The position numbers were made by a program, and so were the translations under genes. 39,805 nucleotides of DNA from a virus: IMG/VR virus record IMGVR_UViG_3300029827_000042, positions 1 to 39,805 of that record; one strand, written 5' to 3'. Positions within the stretch are counted from its first letter, which is position 1, and each line of letters begins with the position of its first letter. This document shows positions 3,399 through 39,805 of the stretch, piece after piece. The notes beneath the pieces were generated by a model. That model made no database searches. It was not told the origin of the DNA and worked only from the letters and a program-made list of their open reading frames with translations.

Positions 3399-3566
3399 AT
3401 GAAAGAAGAGATCACAAAGATTGATGAGTTGCCACAAGAGATTATAGACTATTATGACCGGCAGCTATTAGAATCCACGTCTGACAATACTTGGGTATTG
3501 CGATTCATGGAGTATCTGAAGAATAGGGATCCTTTATATGTTCCTGAGGAATGGGATGGGAAGTGA
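3399..3566 (+). CDS. Small acidic protein, unknown
   Basis: A 55-residue protein starting MKEEITKIDELPQEIIDYYD and ending PLYVPEEWDGK. The frame is open upstream to 3297, but that part overlaps the membrane protein, so the internal ATG preceded by an A/G-rich stretch is preferred. The 3' end is coupled to the next gene (TGATG). No family recognised. Confidence 0.5.
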   Translation: MKEEITKIDELPQEIIDYYDRQLLESTSDNTWVLRFMEYLKNRDPLYVPEEWDGK

Positions 3567-5486: not shown

Positions 5487-5689
5487 ACAAAGCTACATTT
5501 ACAATTGAATATGATTTCTTTGAAGAGCATGAAGAGATCTCACGTATGATTAACTATCAAGAGGCCTATTCTAAGCTTTTTGAGATCCATCAACTCGTAA
5601 GAACAGAATTAAAGCATAGTCCAGAAGAACACTCCATTCACATAGAGCGTCTTCTGAATGAGATAAAAGAGATCAGCTATATAGACTGA
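5483..5689 (+). CDS. Small conserved-looking phage protein
   Basis: A 68-residue acidic protein, MNKATFTIEYDFFEEHEEIS and onward, of a type often found in early regions of phages. The ATGA overlap with the previous gene implies coupling. It is the last gene of the + strand accessory operon, and its stop codon lies inside a hairpin at the convergent junction. Confidence 0.55.
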   Translation: MNKATFTIEYDFFEEHEEISRMINYQEAYSKLFEIHQLVRTELKHSPEEHSIHIERLLNEIKEISYID

Positions 5690-5694
5690 TCTCT
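5668..5694 (-). terminator. Hairpin terminator for the parB-like/rep transcript
   Basis: A perfect 9-bp stem AGAGATCAG (5668-5676) with CTGATCTCT (5686-5694) and a 9-base loop lies between two convergent genes. On the - strand the stem is followed by a short U-rich run (TTTTAT), so it fits the end of the - strand transcript best. It may also slow + strand transcription. Confidence 0.6.
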
Positions 5695-5699
5695 AGAGT

Positions 5700-6470
5700 T
5701 TAAACATTCTGAGGCTCTAATGCCATTCGATTGCCGACTGACATTTTTCGGTTATACAGATCATTGATCAGAACGTTGCGCGCATTTTCTACGTTATTGT
5801 AGCTATTGGCACGGATCAACTCATCTGGATGCATATTGATCTTGCGCATCATATGTTCATGATCGTAATCTATACGGGCTATTGTGGTCATAATCGACCA
5901 CTGTAATGCCTTGGTCATATATTTTTTATTGGAGTAGTATCTAAAGGCTTCTTGTATGTCTTTAAAGTAACCACAAAAGAGTTCGATTGTCGGAAACGTA
6001 TATTTTAAAGTTATTGTGCCGGACTTGAAATCTCTGCTCACTTTACGGAAGTCACCGCCAGTAAAGGTGGAGTTAAAACAGGATAGTGAGACTTGATATT
6101 CTTTGATCATCCTATCGATAAATATATAAGTTACGTTTCCTTGCTTCACGAAAAAATGAAGGTGATCCTCTTGCGACCAATTCTTATTCCCCACATTCAA
6201 CAAATGTACATCATTGACTTCTGGATCCGCATCAATAATATAGTATATAATCAGTTCGTGTTCCTTCGCGATCTGCAGGCGATGTTGTCCGTCTATGACT
6301 TCCATGTCGGGCGAGACGATAATGGGGTTATACTTAAGTTTATTTCGCTTAAGGATCACTCTTTCAAGTTCTCGATTAACTGTGATTTTTCGATTCTCTT
6401 CTAGGAGAATAAATTTGTCGTAATCGTTGGTTTCGTATACGATTATGCTAGTTACGTTGGTAAATGTCAT
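5700..6470 (-). CDS. ParB-like (DGQHR) domain protein
   Basis: A 256-residue protein with the ParB/sulfiredoxin-superfold signature VIDGQHRLQIAKE (DGQHR at 60-64), preceded by a beta-rich segment. The remaining part is helical and has no recognised domain. ParB-type domains occur in partition proteins, DNA nucleases and modification-linked proteins. Start at 6470 because AAGGAATCGTC precedes that ATG; the frame is open upstream to 6548. It is on the same strand as rep and 161 bases behind it, which suggests a plasmid-style partition or regulatory role (inference). Confidence 0.7.
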   Translation of the reverse strand: MTFTNVTSIIVYETNDYDKFILLEENRKITVNRELERVILKRNKLKYNPIIVSPDMEVIDGQHRLQIAKEHELIIYYIIDADPEVNDVHLLNVGNKNWSQEDHLHFFVKQGNVTYIFIDRMIKEYQVSLSCFNSTFTGGDFRKVSRDFKSGTITLKYTFPTIELFCGYFKDIQEAFRYYSNKKYMTKALQWSIMTTIARIDYDHEHMMRKINMHPDELIRANSYNNVENARNVLINDLYNRKMSVGNRMALEPQNV

Positions 6471-6590
6471 GACGATTCCTTGTAAGTTAAATTTTATGCA
6501 CTTTTGAGTATACAAGGATCCATTTTTCATTTCAATGAGGAATTTCATTTTTTATCAAATTTGGTTGTGCCTCTAAACCGTTGCTTACAT

Positions 6591-6631: not shown

Positions 6632-7501
6632 TCATTTTATTTCTACTCCTAGTTTTTCAAATTTTCTTATTACATCAATTTTAAAATCCCTATCCGAAAT
6701 TGATAATACTTCACATTTCATACCGCCTGAAAACTCAATATAAGACTCTCCAACGACGATTCTAACTCCTTGGAGTACTTTGTTGTCATAATGAATTAAA
6801 TGATCTAAAAAGCCCTTATTTGACCTCGATAGATCCTCTGCATCTTCGTTATCAACCCAAAGATCCCATCTTGAGAGAACGGTTGATAATCCTACCGCAT
6901 CAGATGCTCTAGTCTTCCATGCTAAAGTTCTCTTAACGGCAAGTTCAAGTTTTTCTTCATCATGGTACTTCATCAGATTTCTACGAAGGTCATCAGGGAT
7001 TTCTAGCTTTAATAGACAGGAAAAAACAACAACCGCGTTATTGTTTATTTCTTTTCCTTTAGAAGGTTTTCCTTTATACCCCTCATTTTTGAGGGGTTCT
7101 ATGAACCCCTCATTTTTGAGGGGTTCTATGATACCCTCAGAATTGAGGGGTTCGGTAAAATTATTTGAAGGATTCTCAAAGATGAAAATTTTACGCTTCC
7201 TTTTCCACTTGAATTTATCTTTATTCTCCATTGTACAAGGTACGCTTTTGGTATCTCTTCTTATGAAGCCTTCTTTCTCAAGAAGCATGTTCCATCTCTC
7301 GATTGTCTTTATCGAAACACCTTTCATTTTTGCGAGCTGTTCATCAAAAGCAAAGCAATACCCAAATTTATTTGAGAGAACAACAAGCTCTCCGAAATAG
7401 ATTTTTGCTTCGGGCGGTATATTCTTACATTCTCGGATAGGAGATTTTAAGATTGCGTATTCTGGTAATAAGATTTCTTTCAATTCTGACATTTCTGACA
7501 T
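6632..7501 (-). CDS. Helix-turn-helix replication initiator
   Basis: A 289-residue protein. Residues about 30-85 form a winged-helix DNA-binding domain with QLAKMKGVSIKTIERW followed by LLEKEGFIRR, as in phage and plasmid replication initiators of the lambda O/RepA type. Residues 115-144 are a repeat region (IIEPLKNEGFIEPLKNEG) encoded by palindromic 27-bp DNA repeats, so the origin probably lies within the gene. The C-terminal half resembles no domain I can name. AAGAGG is correctly spaced before the ATG. Confidence 0.75.
   Translation of the reverse strand: MSEMSELKEILLPEYAILKSPIRECKNIPPEAKIYFGELVVLSNKFGYCFAFDEQLAKMKGVSIKTIERWNMLLEKEGFIRRDTKSVPCTMENKDKFKWKRKRKIFIFENPSNNFTEPLNSEGIIEPLKNEGFIEPLKNEGYKGKPSKGKEINNNAVVVFSCLLKLEIPDDLRRNLMKYHDEEKLELAVKRTLAWKTRASDAVGLSTVLSRWDLWVDNEDAEDLSRSNKGFLDHLIHYDNKVLQGVRIVVGESYIEFSGGMKCEVLSISDRDFKIDVIRKFEKLGVEIK
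7079..7159. repeat. Three 27-bp palindromic iterons inside rep (candidate origin)
   Basis: Direct repeats of 27 bp begin at 7079, 7106 and 7133. Each contains an inverted repeat CCCCTCA-4-TGAGGGG (7079-7085/7090-7096; 7106-7112/7117-7123; a slightly degenerate third at 7133-7139/7144-7150) followed by TTCTATGAA or a variant. Iterons within the initiator gene are the lambda ori/O arrangement. Each unit encodes nine residues, so the protein repeat is a by-product of the DNA repeat. Confidence 0.8.
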
Positions 7502-7527
7502 GGTAACCTCTTAAATAATTATTATTA

Positions 7528-7557
7528 TTGAAAAAATTCACCCTGCCGTGCTAAATT
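7528..7557 (+). promoter_or_regulatory. Candidate promoter for the terminated leader RNA
   Basis: TTGAAA (7528-7533) and TAAATT (7552-7557) with an 18-base spacer form a fair sigma70 pair on the + strand. A promoter is needed somewhere upstream because a strong + strand terminator follows at 7652 and all genes to the left are on the - strand. Confidence 0.4.
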
Positions 7558-7563
7558 AGTTGC

Positions 7564-7680
7564 CTAAATCGTGCAGATTTTGGTACACTAATCTCAACCT
7601 GGCAGGGTTGATTTCTTAATGGCAACGTTATAAGGTTGCCACTTTCTTACTGGCTATCCTACCTGGATAGCCTTTTTTTT
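7564..7680 (+). ncRNA. Putative short RNA antisense to the rep leader
   Basis: A + strand transcript starting near 7564 and ending at the terminator would be about 115 nt and contain no credible gene. It carries a GGCAAC/GTTGCC hairpin (7621-7640) plus the terminator stem. It is fully complementary to the predicted rep mRNA leader, as in plasmid copy-control RNAs. The alternative is an attenuated leader of the virion operon, comparable to the lambda 6S/tR' arrangement. The 5' end is a guess. Confidence 0.4.
7652..7680 (+). terminator. Rho-independent terminator in the divergent region
   Basis: Stem GGCTATCC (7652-7659) pairs perfectly with GGATAGCC (7665-7672), loop TACCT, followed by eight T. 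This is a textbook + strand terminator although no + strand gene lies just upstream, hence the proposed short RNA. Confidence 0.88.
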
Positions 7681-7684
7681 CCAA
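7656..7684 (-). promoter_or_regulatory. Candidate rep promoter
   Basis: Read on the - strand, TTGGAA (7679-7684) and TAGGAT (7656-7661) are separated by 17 bases. Each matches four of six consensus positions. Transcription would begin near 7650 and give a structured leader of about 150 nt, containing a long-range stem (ACCCTGCC with GGCAGGGT, 7540-7547 and 7601-7608) before the rep ATG. Confidence 0.3.
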
Positions 7685-7701
7685 CCAATTTAAAATTTAC
7701 A

Positions 7702-7729
7702 TTGCAAAGCCATTTACATTAAGTATAAT
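7702..7729 (+). promoter_or_regulatory. Promoter of the virion operon
   Basis: A perfect TATAAT (7724-7729) has TTGCAA (7702-7707) 16 bases upstream. Two TTTACATT direct repeats (7696 and 7713) overlap the promoter and may bind a regulator. Transcription would start about 13 bases before the first virion-operon ATG, downstream of the terminator. Confidence 0.65.
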
Positions 7730-7748
7730 GACCTATTCAAGGTAAAAA

Positions 7749-8072
7749 ATGGCATTTGAAGACAGACATCTTATACCAACAGCTATCACAGCTGCTAAGC
7801 CTGTGGAGGTTACATCAGGATCTCACGGACTTTCAAGAGGCCAGCGTGTGCGCGCTTCACGCTTCTATACAACTCCATTAGCCTCCGCAACCGGGATGGA
7901 ACAGCTCAATGATTGTGATTTTGTCGTTGAGAACGTGACTACTAACACTTTCGAGCTATATGATGTTTTCGGACAGCCGATCGACGGATCCACGTATACC
8001 GCCTTTGTGAATAACGGCCTTGGGCAATTCACGCTCACTGGGCCCACACTCCCTTACGAGAACGAGATTTAA
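7749..8072 (+). CDS. FCCH-like beta-domain protein, first gene of virion operon
   Basis: A 107-residue beta-rich protein with VTSGSHGLSRGQRVRAS, NDCDFVVENVTTNTFELYDV and GSTYTAFVNNG. This layout matches the FCCH-type module found in many phage structural proteins. The same module recurs at 14248-14952, where a 28-base stretch of DNA is identical. AAGG precedes the ATG. It is probably a virion or decoration component; no direct evidence of its location. Confidence 0.65.
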   Translation: MAFEDRHLIPTAITAAKPVEVTSGSHGLSRGQRVRASRFYTTPLASATGMEQLNDCDFVVENVTTNTFELYDVFGQPIDGSTYTAFVNNGLGQFTLTGPTLPYENEI

Positions 8073-8299: not shown

Positions 8300-9814
8300 A
8301 TGAAGAATACACCGATTACAAACCAAAGCCAAGATGACATCGCTAGAGCAAACCTTGCTGATCGTCGATGGCGTCTCGCAAATTTATATAAAATCAAAGA
8401 TAAATATGGAGCCGTCGTTGATTTTGAGCCAAACTGGGCGCAAGATGAACTCCTAAAACCTCATTATTTAAATCTGATCCTCAAAGCGCGTCAGTTAGGC
8501 GTAACTACTTTCTTCAGCATTATGTTCCTGGATACATGTCTCTTTAACGATAACGTAAACGCCGCTATCATTGCCGACAATAAGGATGTTTCTCGGGAGG
8601 TTTTCATTGATAAAGTTAAGTTTGCTTACGATCACCTTCCTGAGTGGGTTAGGCAACTTTCTTCAGCAACTAGGGACAACGTTCATGAGCTTCGCTTTAG
8701 CAATGGTTCCGTTTTTCGTGTGGGTACTTCTTTGCGAGGAGGAACCGTTCAACTCCTTCATATTACAGAGTTTGCGAAGGTTTGCGTCGAAAATCCTAAA
8801 AAAGCTCAAGAGATTATGTCTGGTGCTCTCAATACCGTTCAGGCTGGTCAGTTTGCTTGTATCGAATCGACCGCACGAGGAAAAGATGGCTATTTTTATG
8901 ATATGTGTCAGACTGCTATGGAGCTTGAGAAAAGCGGAAAAGAACTGACTCCCCTAGATTGGAAGTTCTGGTTCTTTCCTTGGTGGAAGGAACCGATGTA
9001 TATGCTTAATGATGAAGATGTTAGGATATCTAAAGACTTTAAAGAATACTTTCTTCATCTAGAAAAGGATCATAATATCTTTCTAAGAGACGAGCAAAAA
9101 GCGTGGTATGTTAAAAAAGCCGAGGTTCAAATGGACGATATGAAAAGAGAGTTCCCTTCCACGCCGCAGGAGAGCTTCGAATCTGCTAATGAGGGTTTCT
9201 ACTTCGCCAAGCTTCTCTCAAGAGCGCGCCACGAAAAGCGTATGACTCGCATCCCTTACGATTCGCACGTCAAACAATTTTCGGCCTGGGATATCGGTTG
9301 GTCAGATTCCACTGCGATCTGGATTTTCCAAGTCGTCGGTAAAGAGATCCAGATGCTCGATTATTACGAGAACTCCGGAGAATCCCTGGAACATTACGAA
9401 AAATGGATAAAAAAACGACCATACAATATTGAGAAACACTTCCTTCCACACGATTCAGCTGGAAAAAGCGCGGCGACTGGACGAGCCTATGTTGATTATG
9501 CTCGTGAGATGGGACTTAAATGTGAAGTTCTGAAGATCGAACACAACAAATTGGTCGATATCGAGATGGTACGTCACATTATGCCAAGAGTATGGTTCGA
9601 CCAAGAGAACTGTGAAAAAGGTATTAAATGCTTAGAGAACTATCGCAAGGAATGGAATGATAAGCTCGAATGTTATCGAGAAAGACCTCTACATAATTGG
9701 GCCAGTCATGGGGTCGACGCTTTTATCTATGCCGTCAATGCAGTTAACAAAATGACCGGAAATTCAGGGCTAACTCCGGAACAATGGAAAGAGATCCGCA
9801 GAAAACATACTTAA
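8300..9814 (+). CDS. terL: Terminase large subunit
   Basis: A 504-residue packaging motor. ATPase domain: Walker A KARQLGVTT (62-70), Walker B LLHITEF (152-158) and a coupling-type CIESTARG (187-194). RNase H-like nuclease domain: first acidic motif AWDIGWSD (Asp331), LPHDSAGKS (Asp385) and the final GVDAFIYAV (Asp473). It translocates DNA into the prohead through the portal and cuts the concatemer. The candidate small subunit is far away at 37284. The start codon is the first ATG of the frame; the upstream ribosome site is weak. Confidence 0.95.
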   Translation: MKNTPITNQSQDDIARANLADRRWRLANLYKIKDKYGAVVDFEPNWAQDELLKPHYLNLILKARQLGVTTFFSIMFLDTCLFNDNVNAAIIADNKDVSREVFIDKVKFAYDHLPEWVRQLSSATRDNVHELRFSNGSVFRVGTSLRGGTVQLLHITEFAKVCVENPKKAQEIMSGALNTVQAGQFACIESTARGKDGYFYDMCQTAMELEKSGKELTPLDWKFWFFPWWKEPMYMLNDEDVRISKDFKEYFLHLEKDHNIFLRDEQKAWYVKKAEVQMDDMKREFPSTPQESFESANEGFYFAKLLSRARHEKRMTRIPYDSHVKQFSAWDIGWSDSTAIWIFQVVGKEIQMLDYYENSGESLEHYEKWIKKRPYNIEKHFLPHDSAGKSAATGRAYVDYAREMGLKCEVLKIEHNKLVDIEMVRHIMPRVWFDQENCEKGIKCLENYRKEWNDKLECYRERPLHNWASHGVDAFIYAVNAVNKMTGNSGLTPEQWKEIRRKHT

Positions 9815-9876
9815 GTTAAAATTTTAACTTACCGATAAACCATGTGTCATGTTATCAAGTAAATTTTAAACTTGAT
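9812..9876. repeat. Two palindromes between terL and portal
   Basis: A 20-bp perfect palindrome (TAAGTTAAAA and its reverse complement, 9812-9831) includes the terL stop codon. It is followed by ATCAAGT/ACTTGAT (9854-9860, 9870-9876) around an A/T loop. There is no T-run typical of a terminator. They could be protein-binding sites or mRNA processing or translation-control hairpins between two genes needed in different amounts. Confidence 0.5.
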
Positions 9877-9886
9877 TCGCGGTGCT

Positions 9887-11992
9887 ATGTCGATATACAT
9901 CCCAGGCGGAACTGATAAAGTCTCCGAGTTCAATATCTTTTTCAATGATGCATATCGTGCAATGTCACCATATTACGTTCAGGCTCAAAAGGATTTGCTT
10001 GCGTATGCAGGGGATAACTGGACGAATGCTGAGAAAACGCAGTTGATACGTCAAAGGCGTATGGTTCTCGAGCTAAACAAAGTTCGTCGTATCATCAATC
10101 TATACTCCGGTTATGAAAGAGAAAACCGGACGTCTACGGTGATTTTTCCTCAAGAACAGAATGATCAAGTTACGGCTGATCAATTCTCTGAGGTGATGCT
10201 TGCTGTCTACAATAAGGCACAGAGCGAATATATCTTTTCAGAAGCTTTTGAGCATTCCCTTAAGACTGGTCTTGCTATCGTCGGTATGTACCTTGATTAT
10301 ACGAATGACAAAGTCAATGGCGACCTTAAATTCTACTGGAAGCCATTTAATTCAATAATTTTGGATCCATACTTTACGAAGCGTGACTTATCCGATTGTG
10401 ACCAAGCTGCTACGCGTGATCTTCTTGGACGTAACCGAGTAAAGGCTCTCCTTCCCCATGTTCCTGCGGAGATCATCGACGATCTTCCGACGGGAATACG
10501 GGATAACAAATTCCAATATCTAGGCAATTATCGCCAATTCAATTCCCAATACATTTCAAAACATTTACTTACTTATGATCAGCACTGGGTTCGCGAGACT
10601 ATCGAAGAGAAATTTGTGGTGGATCAGGAAACTGGCGAATCTGAACTTGTCACTGGAACGCCTGAAGAAGTGAGAGAACTCAAGCAGTTACTTATAGAGA
10701 ATCCACAATTCAAAATGATATCTGCTTACAAGGAAACTGTAAATCTGCGAATTATTGTTGGAGGACAACTTTTATATGACGGTCCCGATCCTACTGGCTT
10801 GGATACATATCCTTTCTTGCCTGTACTTGCTTATCACGAACCTGAGATTGATTCTTTCGAGTTAAAGATACAGGGTGTTGTCCGTTCGGTAAGAGATGCG
10901 CAACGTCAATACAATCGTCGCCATTCACAAATCATTGACATCATGGAATCCATTATCAACTCGGGATGGGTTCATAAAAATGGTGCTGTTGTTGATCCAG
11001 AGATGCTCTTTCAAACCGGTCAGGGGCGAAACATCGTAGTTAACCAGGACTTTGATGTGAATGGCGATCTTCGCGAGATTTCACCTCCACAGATCCCTCA
11101 AGGATACCTCGCTTATCAAGACATCATGGATCGAAATATCATGGAGATTCCGGGCGGTTCTGATGAGCTTCTAGGACTCTCATCTACAGGTGATGTGCAG
11201 GTATCCGGAAAGCTTGCTGAGGTGCGCGCTTCAAACGGTTTAAAGGGAAATAGAGGTCTCTTCGATAATTTCGAATACTTCCAAAAGCTGTTTGGTGGCC
11301 TTACAATGAAGGGTATTCAGAAGAACTTCACTCCAGGAAAGGTTCAACGGCTAATCAACCAAGAGCCTACGGAAGAGTTCTTCTCTAAGTCATTCGAGCA
11401 ATTCGATTGCGTTATCAAATCTATTGCTAAGACGCAGACGCAACGTGAGGCTTACTATTATCAACTTCTACAACTTCGTTCTATCGGGGTACCTATTCCC
11501 GATGATGAACTTATTTCTGCTGTTCCGCTACAAGGCAAGACGAATCTCATCAAGAAAATGGCAGAGATGGAAGAGCAGAAGAAAGCAGCTATCGAACAAG
11601 AGATGAAAGACAAGTCTCTACAAGATCAACTCATTGCAAGTACTACAGATCAGAATCTCGCTCTCGCTCAAGAAAGACGTGCTCGTGTGCTATCTGATCT
11701 CGGATTGGCCAGAGAACGCGTATCCGAAGCACATCTCAATCAGACAAAAGGTTTACTCAATAACGCTAAAACGATCGCCGAGATGGAAGACATGAAGCAA
11801 GGGCGTTTTATTGAGATGTTAAAGCTCGCATCGGAGGTTCAAGTAAATACAGCCGATGTAGAAGAACAATTGGATAACGACATGGAAAGATCACGGCAAA
11901 TGATCGACCAAGCCGGCATCCTTAATCAACAACAGGCTCCTCCTCCTGGAATGGAACAGGGGCCGCAAAACATGGGAGGCCTCAATGGCTAA
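9887..11992 (+). CDS. Portal protein (P22-like podoviral family)
   Basis: About 701 residues, the size of P22-type portals. The N-terminal part carries RRIINLYSGYERENR and KTGLAIVGMYLDY, and a middle part YNRRHSQIIDIMES. The C-terminal third is a long Gln/Glu-rich helix region (barrel-like), ending in a Pro/Gly/Met tail. The dodecameric portal would form the DNA channel, dock the terminase and nucleate head assembly. The ATG at 9887 is preferred to a TTG at 9872. It follows terL and precedes the scaffold and capsid genes in classic order. Confidence 0.88.
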   Translation: MSIYIPGGTDKVSEFNIFFNDAYRAMSPYYVQAQKDLLAYAGDNWTNAEKTQLIRQRRMVLELNKVRRIINLYSGYERENRTSTVIFPQEQNDQVTADQFSEVMLAVYNKAQSEYIFSEAFEHSLKTGLAIVGMYLDYTNDKVNGDLKFYWKPFNSIILDPYFTKRDLSDCDQAATRDLLGRNRVKALLPHVPAEIIDDLPTGIRDNKFQYLGNYRQFNSQYISKHLLTYDQHWVRETIEEKFVVDQETGESELVTGTPEEVRELKQLLIENPQFKMISAYKETVNLRIIVGGQLLYDGPDPTGLDTYPFLPVLAYHEPEIDSFELKIQGVVRSVRDAQRQYNRRHSQIIDIMESIINSGWVHKNGAVVDPEMLFQTGQGRNIVVNQDFDVNGDLREISPPQIPQGYLAYQDIMDRNIMEIPGGSDELLGLSSTGDVQVSGKLAEVRASNGLKGNRGLFDNFEYFQKLFGGLTMKGIQKNFTPGKVQRLINQEPTEEFFSKSFEQFDCVIKSIAKTQTQREAYYYQLLQLRSIGVPIPDDELISAVPLQGKTNLIKKMAEMEEQKKAAIEQEMKDKSLQDQLIASTTDQNLALAQERRARVLSDLGLARERVSEAHLNQTKGLLNNAKTIAEMEDMKQGRFIEMLKLASEVQVNTADVEEQLDNDMERSRQMIDQAGILNQQQAPPPGMEQGPQNMGGLNG

Positions 11993-36636: not shown

Positions 36637-36726
36637 TTTACTCCTTTATGTTATGTTTTTATTCCTATGTTAAGTAGTTTTATGCGAAAACCGGGCGATC
36701 CTTTGGTTTAAGTCAGCCCAGTTTTA

Positions 36727-36752
36727 CCCCTCTTTAAAAAGAGGGGTTTTTT
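36727..36752 (+). terminator. Perfect hairpin terminator between minus-strand genes
   Basis: CCCCTCTTT (36727-36735) and AAAGAGGGG (36738-36746) form a perfect 9-bp stem with a two-base DNA spacer, followed by six T in the + direction. On the - strand it follows the stop codon of 36751-37146 but ends in TAAAAC, so it is a weaker terminator there. The strong orientation points to an unseen + strand transcript. Confidence 0.75.
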
Positions 36753-39726: not shown

Positions 39727-39805
39727 AATCGTTTGGGTCCCATCAAGTTTATATTTGAAAAGGCGTCAGAGCCGATCACTATATAAGGGACTCCTATATA
39801 TATAG
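39727..39805. repeat. Right copy of the 79-bp terminal direct repeat
   Basis: Identical to bases 1-79. The unique genome length is therefore 39,726 bp. The preceding base context (TTTATT) joins smoothly to base 1 onward, consistent with circular closure. Confidence 0.97.

Follow-up and report, generated by a model that had tools for sequence, protein, structure and literature searches.

The 77-nt OOP RNA of phage lambda is an antisense RNA specified by the pO-oop-tO unit beside gene O, and the purpose of OOP and of its promoter has been debated for decades, with the unit cast either as an antisense brake on cII or as a regulator of replication initiation. Plasmids carry antisense copy-number RNAs of their own, such as CopA of R1 and RNAI of ColE1, and the pR'-tR' plan of lambda places a promoter-terminator leader ahead of the late genes. 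OOP silences cII (PMC5869508). Lambda phage and plasmids that are pO- replicate more poorly, and pO lowers transcription from pR, with the stability of the O-P mRNA left unchanged by oop RNA (PMC3985674). Replicative inhibition in lambda requires OOP together with the iterons, and it is abolished when oop nucleotides 2–46 are replaced with pO and the terminator kept in place (PMC3349717). A 2016 study noted that until recently phage antisense RNAs, oop being the first, had been reported in lambdoid phages only (PMC4933390).

A replication initiator with internal iterons diverges from the virion operon

The window, by which we mean the whole stretch of DNA analysed here, is a 39,805-bp virus genome; a 79-bp direct terminal repeat (positions 1–79 and 39727–39805) indicates that it is probably complete and circularly assembled. 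Its phage-type genes encode a P22-type portal, TerL, Erf, an exonuclease, RusA, a serine recombinase, a ParB-like protein and a Cro-like HTH protein, and by this gene content it appears to be a tailed phage, possibly a temperate one. A DNA similarity search against named phages returned two short terL matches and nothing else, and a scan of the whole window at gathering scores matched no Rfam family. A 247-bp divergent gap separates rep, on the - strand to the left, from the first gene of the virion operon, on the + strand to the right (Table 1). A diverged second copy of the 107-aa protein encoded by this first gene is found kilobases downstream in several relatives (L034 11142–11417, L041 11143–11427, and L070–L073). 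The ParB-like gene behind rep and, in relatives, an RtcB-type RNA ligase or ParA-like gene close to terL (L027 3137–4306, L015 1788–2552) may reflect plasmid persistence of some of these phages.

The rep product matches PHROG replication-initiation profiles, with additional weak O-like matches; BLASTP gives no alignment between it and lambda O, and a search of IMG/VR for its relatives confirmed none. The iterons inside rep are likely the origin. Their position within the gene (nt 349–424) matches that of the lambda iterons (nt 349–433 of O), and many relatives carry 15–23-bp tandem repeats at about nt 300–510 of their initiator genes. Judged from these sequence features, the unit described below sits in a lambda-type replication module.

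Table 1. Coordinates of annotated and predicted features in the window and of the corresponding promoter candidates in the closest relative, L004
Feature	Position	Strand	Remarks
Terminator behind ParB-like gene	5669-5693	-	
ParB-like gene	5700-6548	-	3' of rep, same orientation
rep, replication initiator	6632..7501	-	HTH_36; PHROG replication initiation protein
Iterons within rep	7078..7153	-	27-bp palindromic repeats x 2.8, rep nt 349-424
P1, pO-like promoter candidate	7528..7557	+	TTGAAA-18-TAAATT, TG extended -10, 9/12; predicted
P2, alternative pO-like promoter candidate	7560..7589	+	TTGCCT-18-TACACT, TG extended -10; predicted
Long-range hairpin, rep leader	7540-7547 / 7601-7608	-	arms ACCCTGCC / GGCAGGGT
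Pair inside the long stem	7555-7560 / 7587-7592		ATTAGT / ACTAAT
Predicted OOP-like short RNA from P1	7564..7680	+	~117 nt
Predicted short RNA if from P2	~7596-7680	+	85 nt
Hairpin inside the short RNA	7621-7626 / 7635-7640	+	GGCAAC / GTTGCC
Intrinsic terminator (tO-like)	7652-7680	+	8-bp stem + T8: GGCTATCC-TACCT-GGATAGCC
rep promoter candidate	7656..7684	-	TTGGAA-17-TAGGAT, leader ~150 nt, rank 57; predicted
Virion operon promoter candidate	7702..7729	+	TTGCAA-16-TATAAT, 3' of terminator, rank 14; predicted
Virion operon, first gene	7749..8072	+	107 aa
Stronger rep promoter candidate	7770-7798	-	TTAGCA-17-TATAAG, extended -10, leader ~260 nt, rank 17; predicted
terL	8300-9814	+	virion operon, downstream of 107-aa gene
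P22-type portal gene	9872-11992	+	virion operon, after terL
L004, promoter counterpart	3469-3498		TTGACC-18-TAAGAT, TG extended -10, rank 3 of 23006
L004, weaker late promoter candidate			TTGTCT-16-TATAGT, between terminator and late genes, rank 18 of 23006

A terminator, promoter candidates and strong folding in the divergent gap

The initial annotation had recognised a + strand intrinsic terminator in the gap. The terminator is present and stands beyond chance: it is one of the two + strand matches that the 39.8-kb genome has at a dG of -13 or lower, and six randomised genomes contained none. The accompanying remark that no + strand gene precedes it is correct locally, but a + strand operon ends further off, at 5689, and no + strand terminator at dG -8 or below was called between there and 7652. 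The other strong + strand terminator (36726–36747, dG -13.7) lies between two - strand genes, again without a preceding + strand gene; the region 36655–36752 has a fair fold on the + strand (z -3.25) and is possibly another short antisense RNA.

Promoters in this analysis are weight-matrix matches, and gene starts are the output of a simple caller. Two candidates, P1 and P2, point away from rep, with their -10 elements ending 55 nt and 87 nt upstream of its start. P1, which had been put forward as a fair promoter, does exist as a site but is weak alone (28th of about 79,600 genome positions) and is outranked slightly by P2, which stands 13th genome-wide and is the best antisense candidate near rep, with 3 of 40 shuffles matching its score. 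Promoter-like sites in the area (11, vs 6.2 ± 3.0 in shuffles) are not enriched. This count would fit a divergent gap in which hairpins have arisen by chance and AT-rich stretches merely look like promoters, a reading that we hold to be highly improbable in view of the absence of the terminator from randomised genomes, the enrichment of both the terminator and the joint promoter-terminator unit beside initiator genes, and the behaviour of lambda as a positive control (see below).

Both rep promoter candidates would give leaders that overlap the predicted short RNA, and they converge on P1 and P2 in the manner of lambda pR versus pO. The interval 7502–7681 folds far better than its shuffles on the + strand (z -8.3) as well as on the - strand (z -7.3), and the region of the predicted short RNA itself, 7565–7680, has a fold z of -4.6. 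Three paired elements had been described here. The ATTAGT/ACTAAT pair and the GGCAAC/GTTGCC hairpin are both present, and so is the long-range stem in the rep leader; the left arm of this stem, however, falls within the P1 spacer, ahead of the RNA start predicted near 7564. The stem is therefore possible in the rep leader but cannot form in the short + strand RNA. A direct repeat, TTTCTTAATGGC at 7612–7623 and TTTCTTACTGGC at 7643–7654, marks the base of the final two hairpins of the short RNA, a copy to each.

A further + strand promoter candidate lies between the terminator and the virion operon. The sequence ATTTACATT occurs twice around its -35 element, 20 bp apart (7692–7700 and 7712–7720), and is a possible operator or activator site. 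A motif near CATTAAGATGAATTTATGTAAAG recurs before homologues of the 107-aa gene in L010, L012, L014 and many relatives, and a related version of it precedes terL in many relatives; it is a candidate for a phage-specific late promoter.

As an alternative, the initial annotation had offered an attenuated late leader, in which transcription from P1 or P2 stops at 7680 and a Q-like phage antiterminator permits entry into the virion operon. The layout does resemble the lambda pR'-tR' plan, with a promoter candidate and then a terminator immediately before the virion genes; the virion operon begins 68 nt past the terminator on the same strand, and the closest relative shows the same order. Unlike a Q-dependent pR'-tR' leader, however, the window genome encodes no protein of the Q antiterminator families PF06530 and PF03589, a promoter candidate stands past the terminator (as does a weaker one in the closest relative), and relatives carry units with no late gene following, where the tandem-arranged units face the antisense strand of early genes and there is nothing to express. 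On these grounds the late leader is disfavoured, and we regard it as improbable, although an antiterminator unrelated to the Q families may be present.

The closest relative shares the layout

The closest relative of the window, L004 (80% in TerL), has the same layout of a - strand rep, an extended -10 promoter candidate, an inverted repeat, a + strand terminator and late genes. Its initiator gives no BLAST alignment with that of the window, and a search for relatives of the L004 initiator recovered L004 alone. The extended -10 promoter candidate is located 37 nt upstream of the initiator start, and a 9-bp inverted repeat, CCCAGAATC/GATTCTGGG, one of whose arms falls on the boundary between -35 and spacer, is the counterpart of the long hairpin of the window (- strand z -3.1). 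Genes on the + strand converge on the rep operon in L004 as they do in the window. Direct alignment of the two gaps was uninformative. The regions upstream of the 107-aa gene homologues vary among the other TerL relatives, with different genes there, and we therefore rejected the idea that the layout belongs to the virion operon in general.

Antisense promoter-terminator units recur beside initiator genes

Initiator genes of the TerL-related phages were found with PHROG profiles over whole records. An antisense terminator (dG -11 or below, called by the same program for initiators and control genes) lies 5–200 nt upstream of the start in 18 of 26 initiator genes vs 52 of 1004 control genes (5.2%), with a Fisher p of 2e-15 against controls with a 20–400 nt gap; this and the following p-values are optimistic, as the surveyed sequences are related and independence is overstated. 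Sense terminators at the same distance precede 1 of the 26. In a second batch of initiators, gathered with another family model once the hypothesis had been formed, the antisense terminator was present in 8 of 10 (binomial p 2e-9). When a sigma70 promoter on the antisense strand close to the start codon (score 8.5 or more) was sought together with the terminator, the joint unit was found at 14 of 25 initiator genes and at 4 of 1044 controls (p 5e-22), and one of these four control matches, from L087, turned out to be an initiator-type HTH gene. The predicted RNAs of the relatives are mostly about 50–180 nt long.

Most of the relatives' initiators are homologous to lambda O, and those of the window/L099 and of L004 form separate groups. 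Grouping at 60% identity, with lambda O included, divides the initiators into 23 clusters, and the DNA upstream of them mostly fails to align, so the unit does not simply reflect the copying of one sequence. Nor is it universal, since no joint unit was found at the initiator-like genes in ten distant named phages. Seven of the 25 initiator genes are without the unit. Three relatives have a rep without the unit but an antisense promoter-terminator unit before a gene further upstream (L086 2794–3063, L087 863–1171, L166 535–810); in L087 this gene is of the initiator-type HTH kind (phrog_270). A consensus fold of the terminators of five relatives left the hairpins misaligned, with zero predicted pairs, and so supports no claim of covariation. 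Part of the promoter signal in one clade, the pO-like -35 (TTGACGGGTAAA), coincides with the codons for a conserved LPV(N/K) stretch and may partly be a coding by-product, and for this reason its conservation is not counted as separate proof.

The survey bears on the reading of the terminator as an insulator, which would merely halt antisense read-through that comes from the + strand operon ending at 5689 and crosses parB and rep, ahead of the virion operon, with no dedicated short RNA. The lack of a called + strand terminator between that operon and the gap fits this reading, as do the converging + strand genes of L004. Antisense terminators, however, also stand beside initiators that precede tandem early genes rather than a virion operon, and the enrichment of antisense promoters beside initiators would be left unexplained. 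Pure insulation possibly holds for the window, but it does not account for the relatives, and we consider this explanation quite improbable.

Comparison with lambda OOP and with plasmid antisense RNAs

Run on lambda as a positive control, the same scan recovered tO 57–82 nt upstream of O, and pO (TTGAGT-17-TGTCATAAT) with its -10 ending 2 nt before the O start codon; near-identical pO-like sites occupy the same position in L093, L176 and L094. The window resembles the lambda OOP unit in that its promoter candidates adjoin the initiator start and point away from it, the predicted RNA is short and self-terminating, and the initiator gene has internal iterons. The relatives' initiators that bear the unit are, moreover, mostly lambda O homologues. 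The surroundings differ: the rep of the window is divergent from the virion operon, whereas lambda O lies downstream of cII, and blastn detects no similarity between window and lambda in the 200 nt upstream of the initiator gene.

The best-known target of OOP is also missing. Phage_CII has no match in the window and none above the family cut-off in 24 relatives, and none of the genes upstream of ten relatives' initiators is CII. With no CII above this cut-off in the window or the relatives, and with the upstream neighbour of rep divergent, we rejected cII as a target of the predicted RNA.

The gap had been likened to the architecture of plasmid antisense copy-number control, and as a functional analogy this holds, in that the predicted RNA is short, terminated and complementary to the structured leader of a replication gene. 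Unlike in the plasmid systems, the initiator type, the iteron origin within the gene and the promoter position are lambda-like, no plasmid antisense RNA family of Rfam matches the window, and the genome-level match is to pO-oop-tO. Lambda OOP is thus the proper model, and plasmid copy control a functional comparison only.

Discussion

We consider it fairly probable, on the evidence of sequence, that the divergent gap is an OOP-like unit with a predicted self-terminating RNA of about 85–117 nt that is complementary to the rep leader and controls rep or the origin. Transcription would begin at a sigma70-type promoter a short way upstream of the rep start codon and run away from rep, the resulting RNA (about 85 to 117 nt, depending on the promoter) would be fully complementary to the rep leader, and the terminator would also block this transcription from entering the virion operon. 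The unit would limit or time initiator production and the activity of the in-gene origin, as in lambda pO-oop-tO, possibly through convergent transcription against the rep promoter, through pairing of the antisense RNA to the structured leader of rep, or through both. The elements, their recurrence beside initiators, the iterons and the absence of cII above the cut-off are computational findings, and the synthesis of the RNA and each step of its action are inferred. The antisense short RNA first proposed for the gap gains strong comparative support from the recurrence of the unit before relatives' initiators that have no virion operon beside them; its weak points are the promoter candidates of the window, which are fair at best and two in number.

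A variant of the OOP-like reading is that only the firing of the pO-like promoter matters and the RNA is a by-product, the effective agent being convergent RNA polymerase traffic or DNA topology at the origin. Such a cis-only device would agree with the lowering of pR transcription by lambda pO and with the lack of effect of oop RNA on O-P mRNA stability (PMC3985674). It is at odds with the loss of replicative inhibition when oop nt 2–46 are replaced despite an intact pO and terminator (PMC3349717), and also with the strong structure of the window region on both strands; we find it rather unlikely. In lambda, the evidence favours both an effect of pO in cis and a requirement for the intact oop sequence.

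Within the OOP-like reading, the surroundings of rep narrow what the unit could act on. Upstream of rep, its own strand is empty until the virion operon on the opposite strand, so any action of the RNA in cis would be confined to the rep leader and promoter or to the origin. In addition, the unit is common in relatives without a recognisable cII, which points to replication control as its general role. More tentatively, phage origins of the O type could have OOP-like units as a general control module that does not depend on the cII switch and perhaps predates it, the units having been retained or regained next to initiators that are unrelated (lambda O homologues, the window/L099 type and the L004 type) across a large uncultured group that lacks cII. 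Phages that have no cII and yet retain the unit beside the initiator naturally separate the two roles debated for lambda, and favour replication control. The window offers a clean test case, as its rep does not lie downstream of a cII-like gene and a cis effect must fall on rep or the origin.
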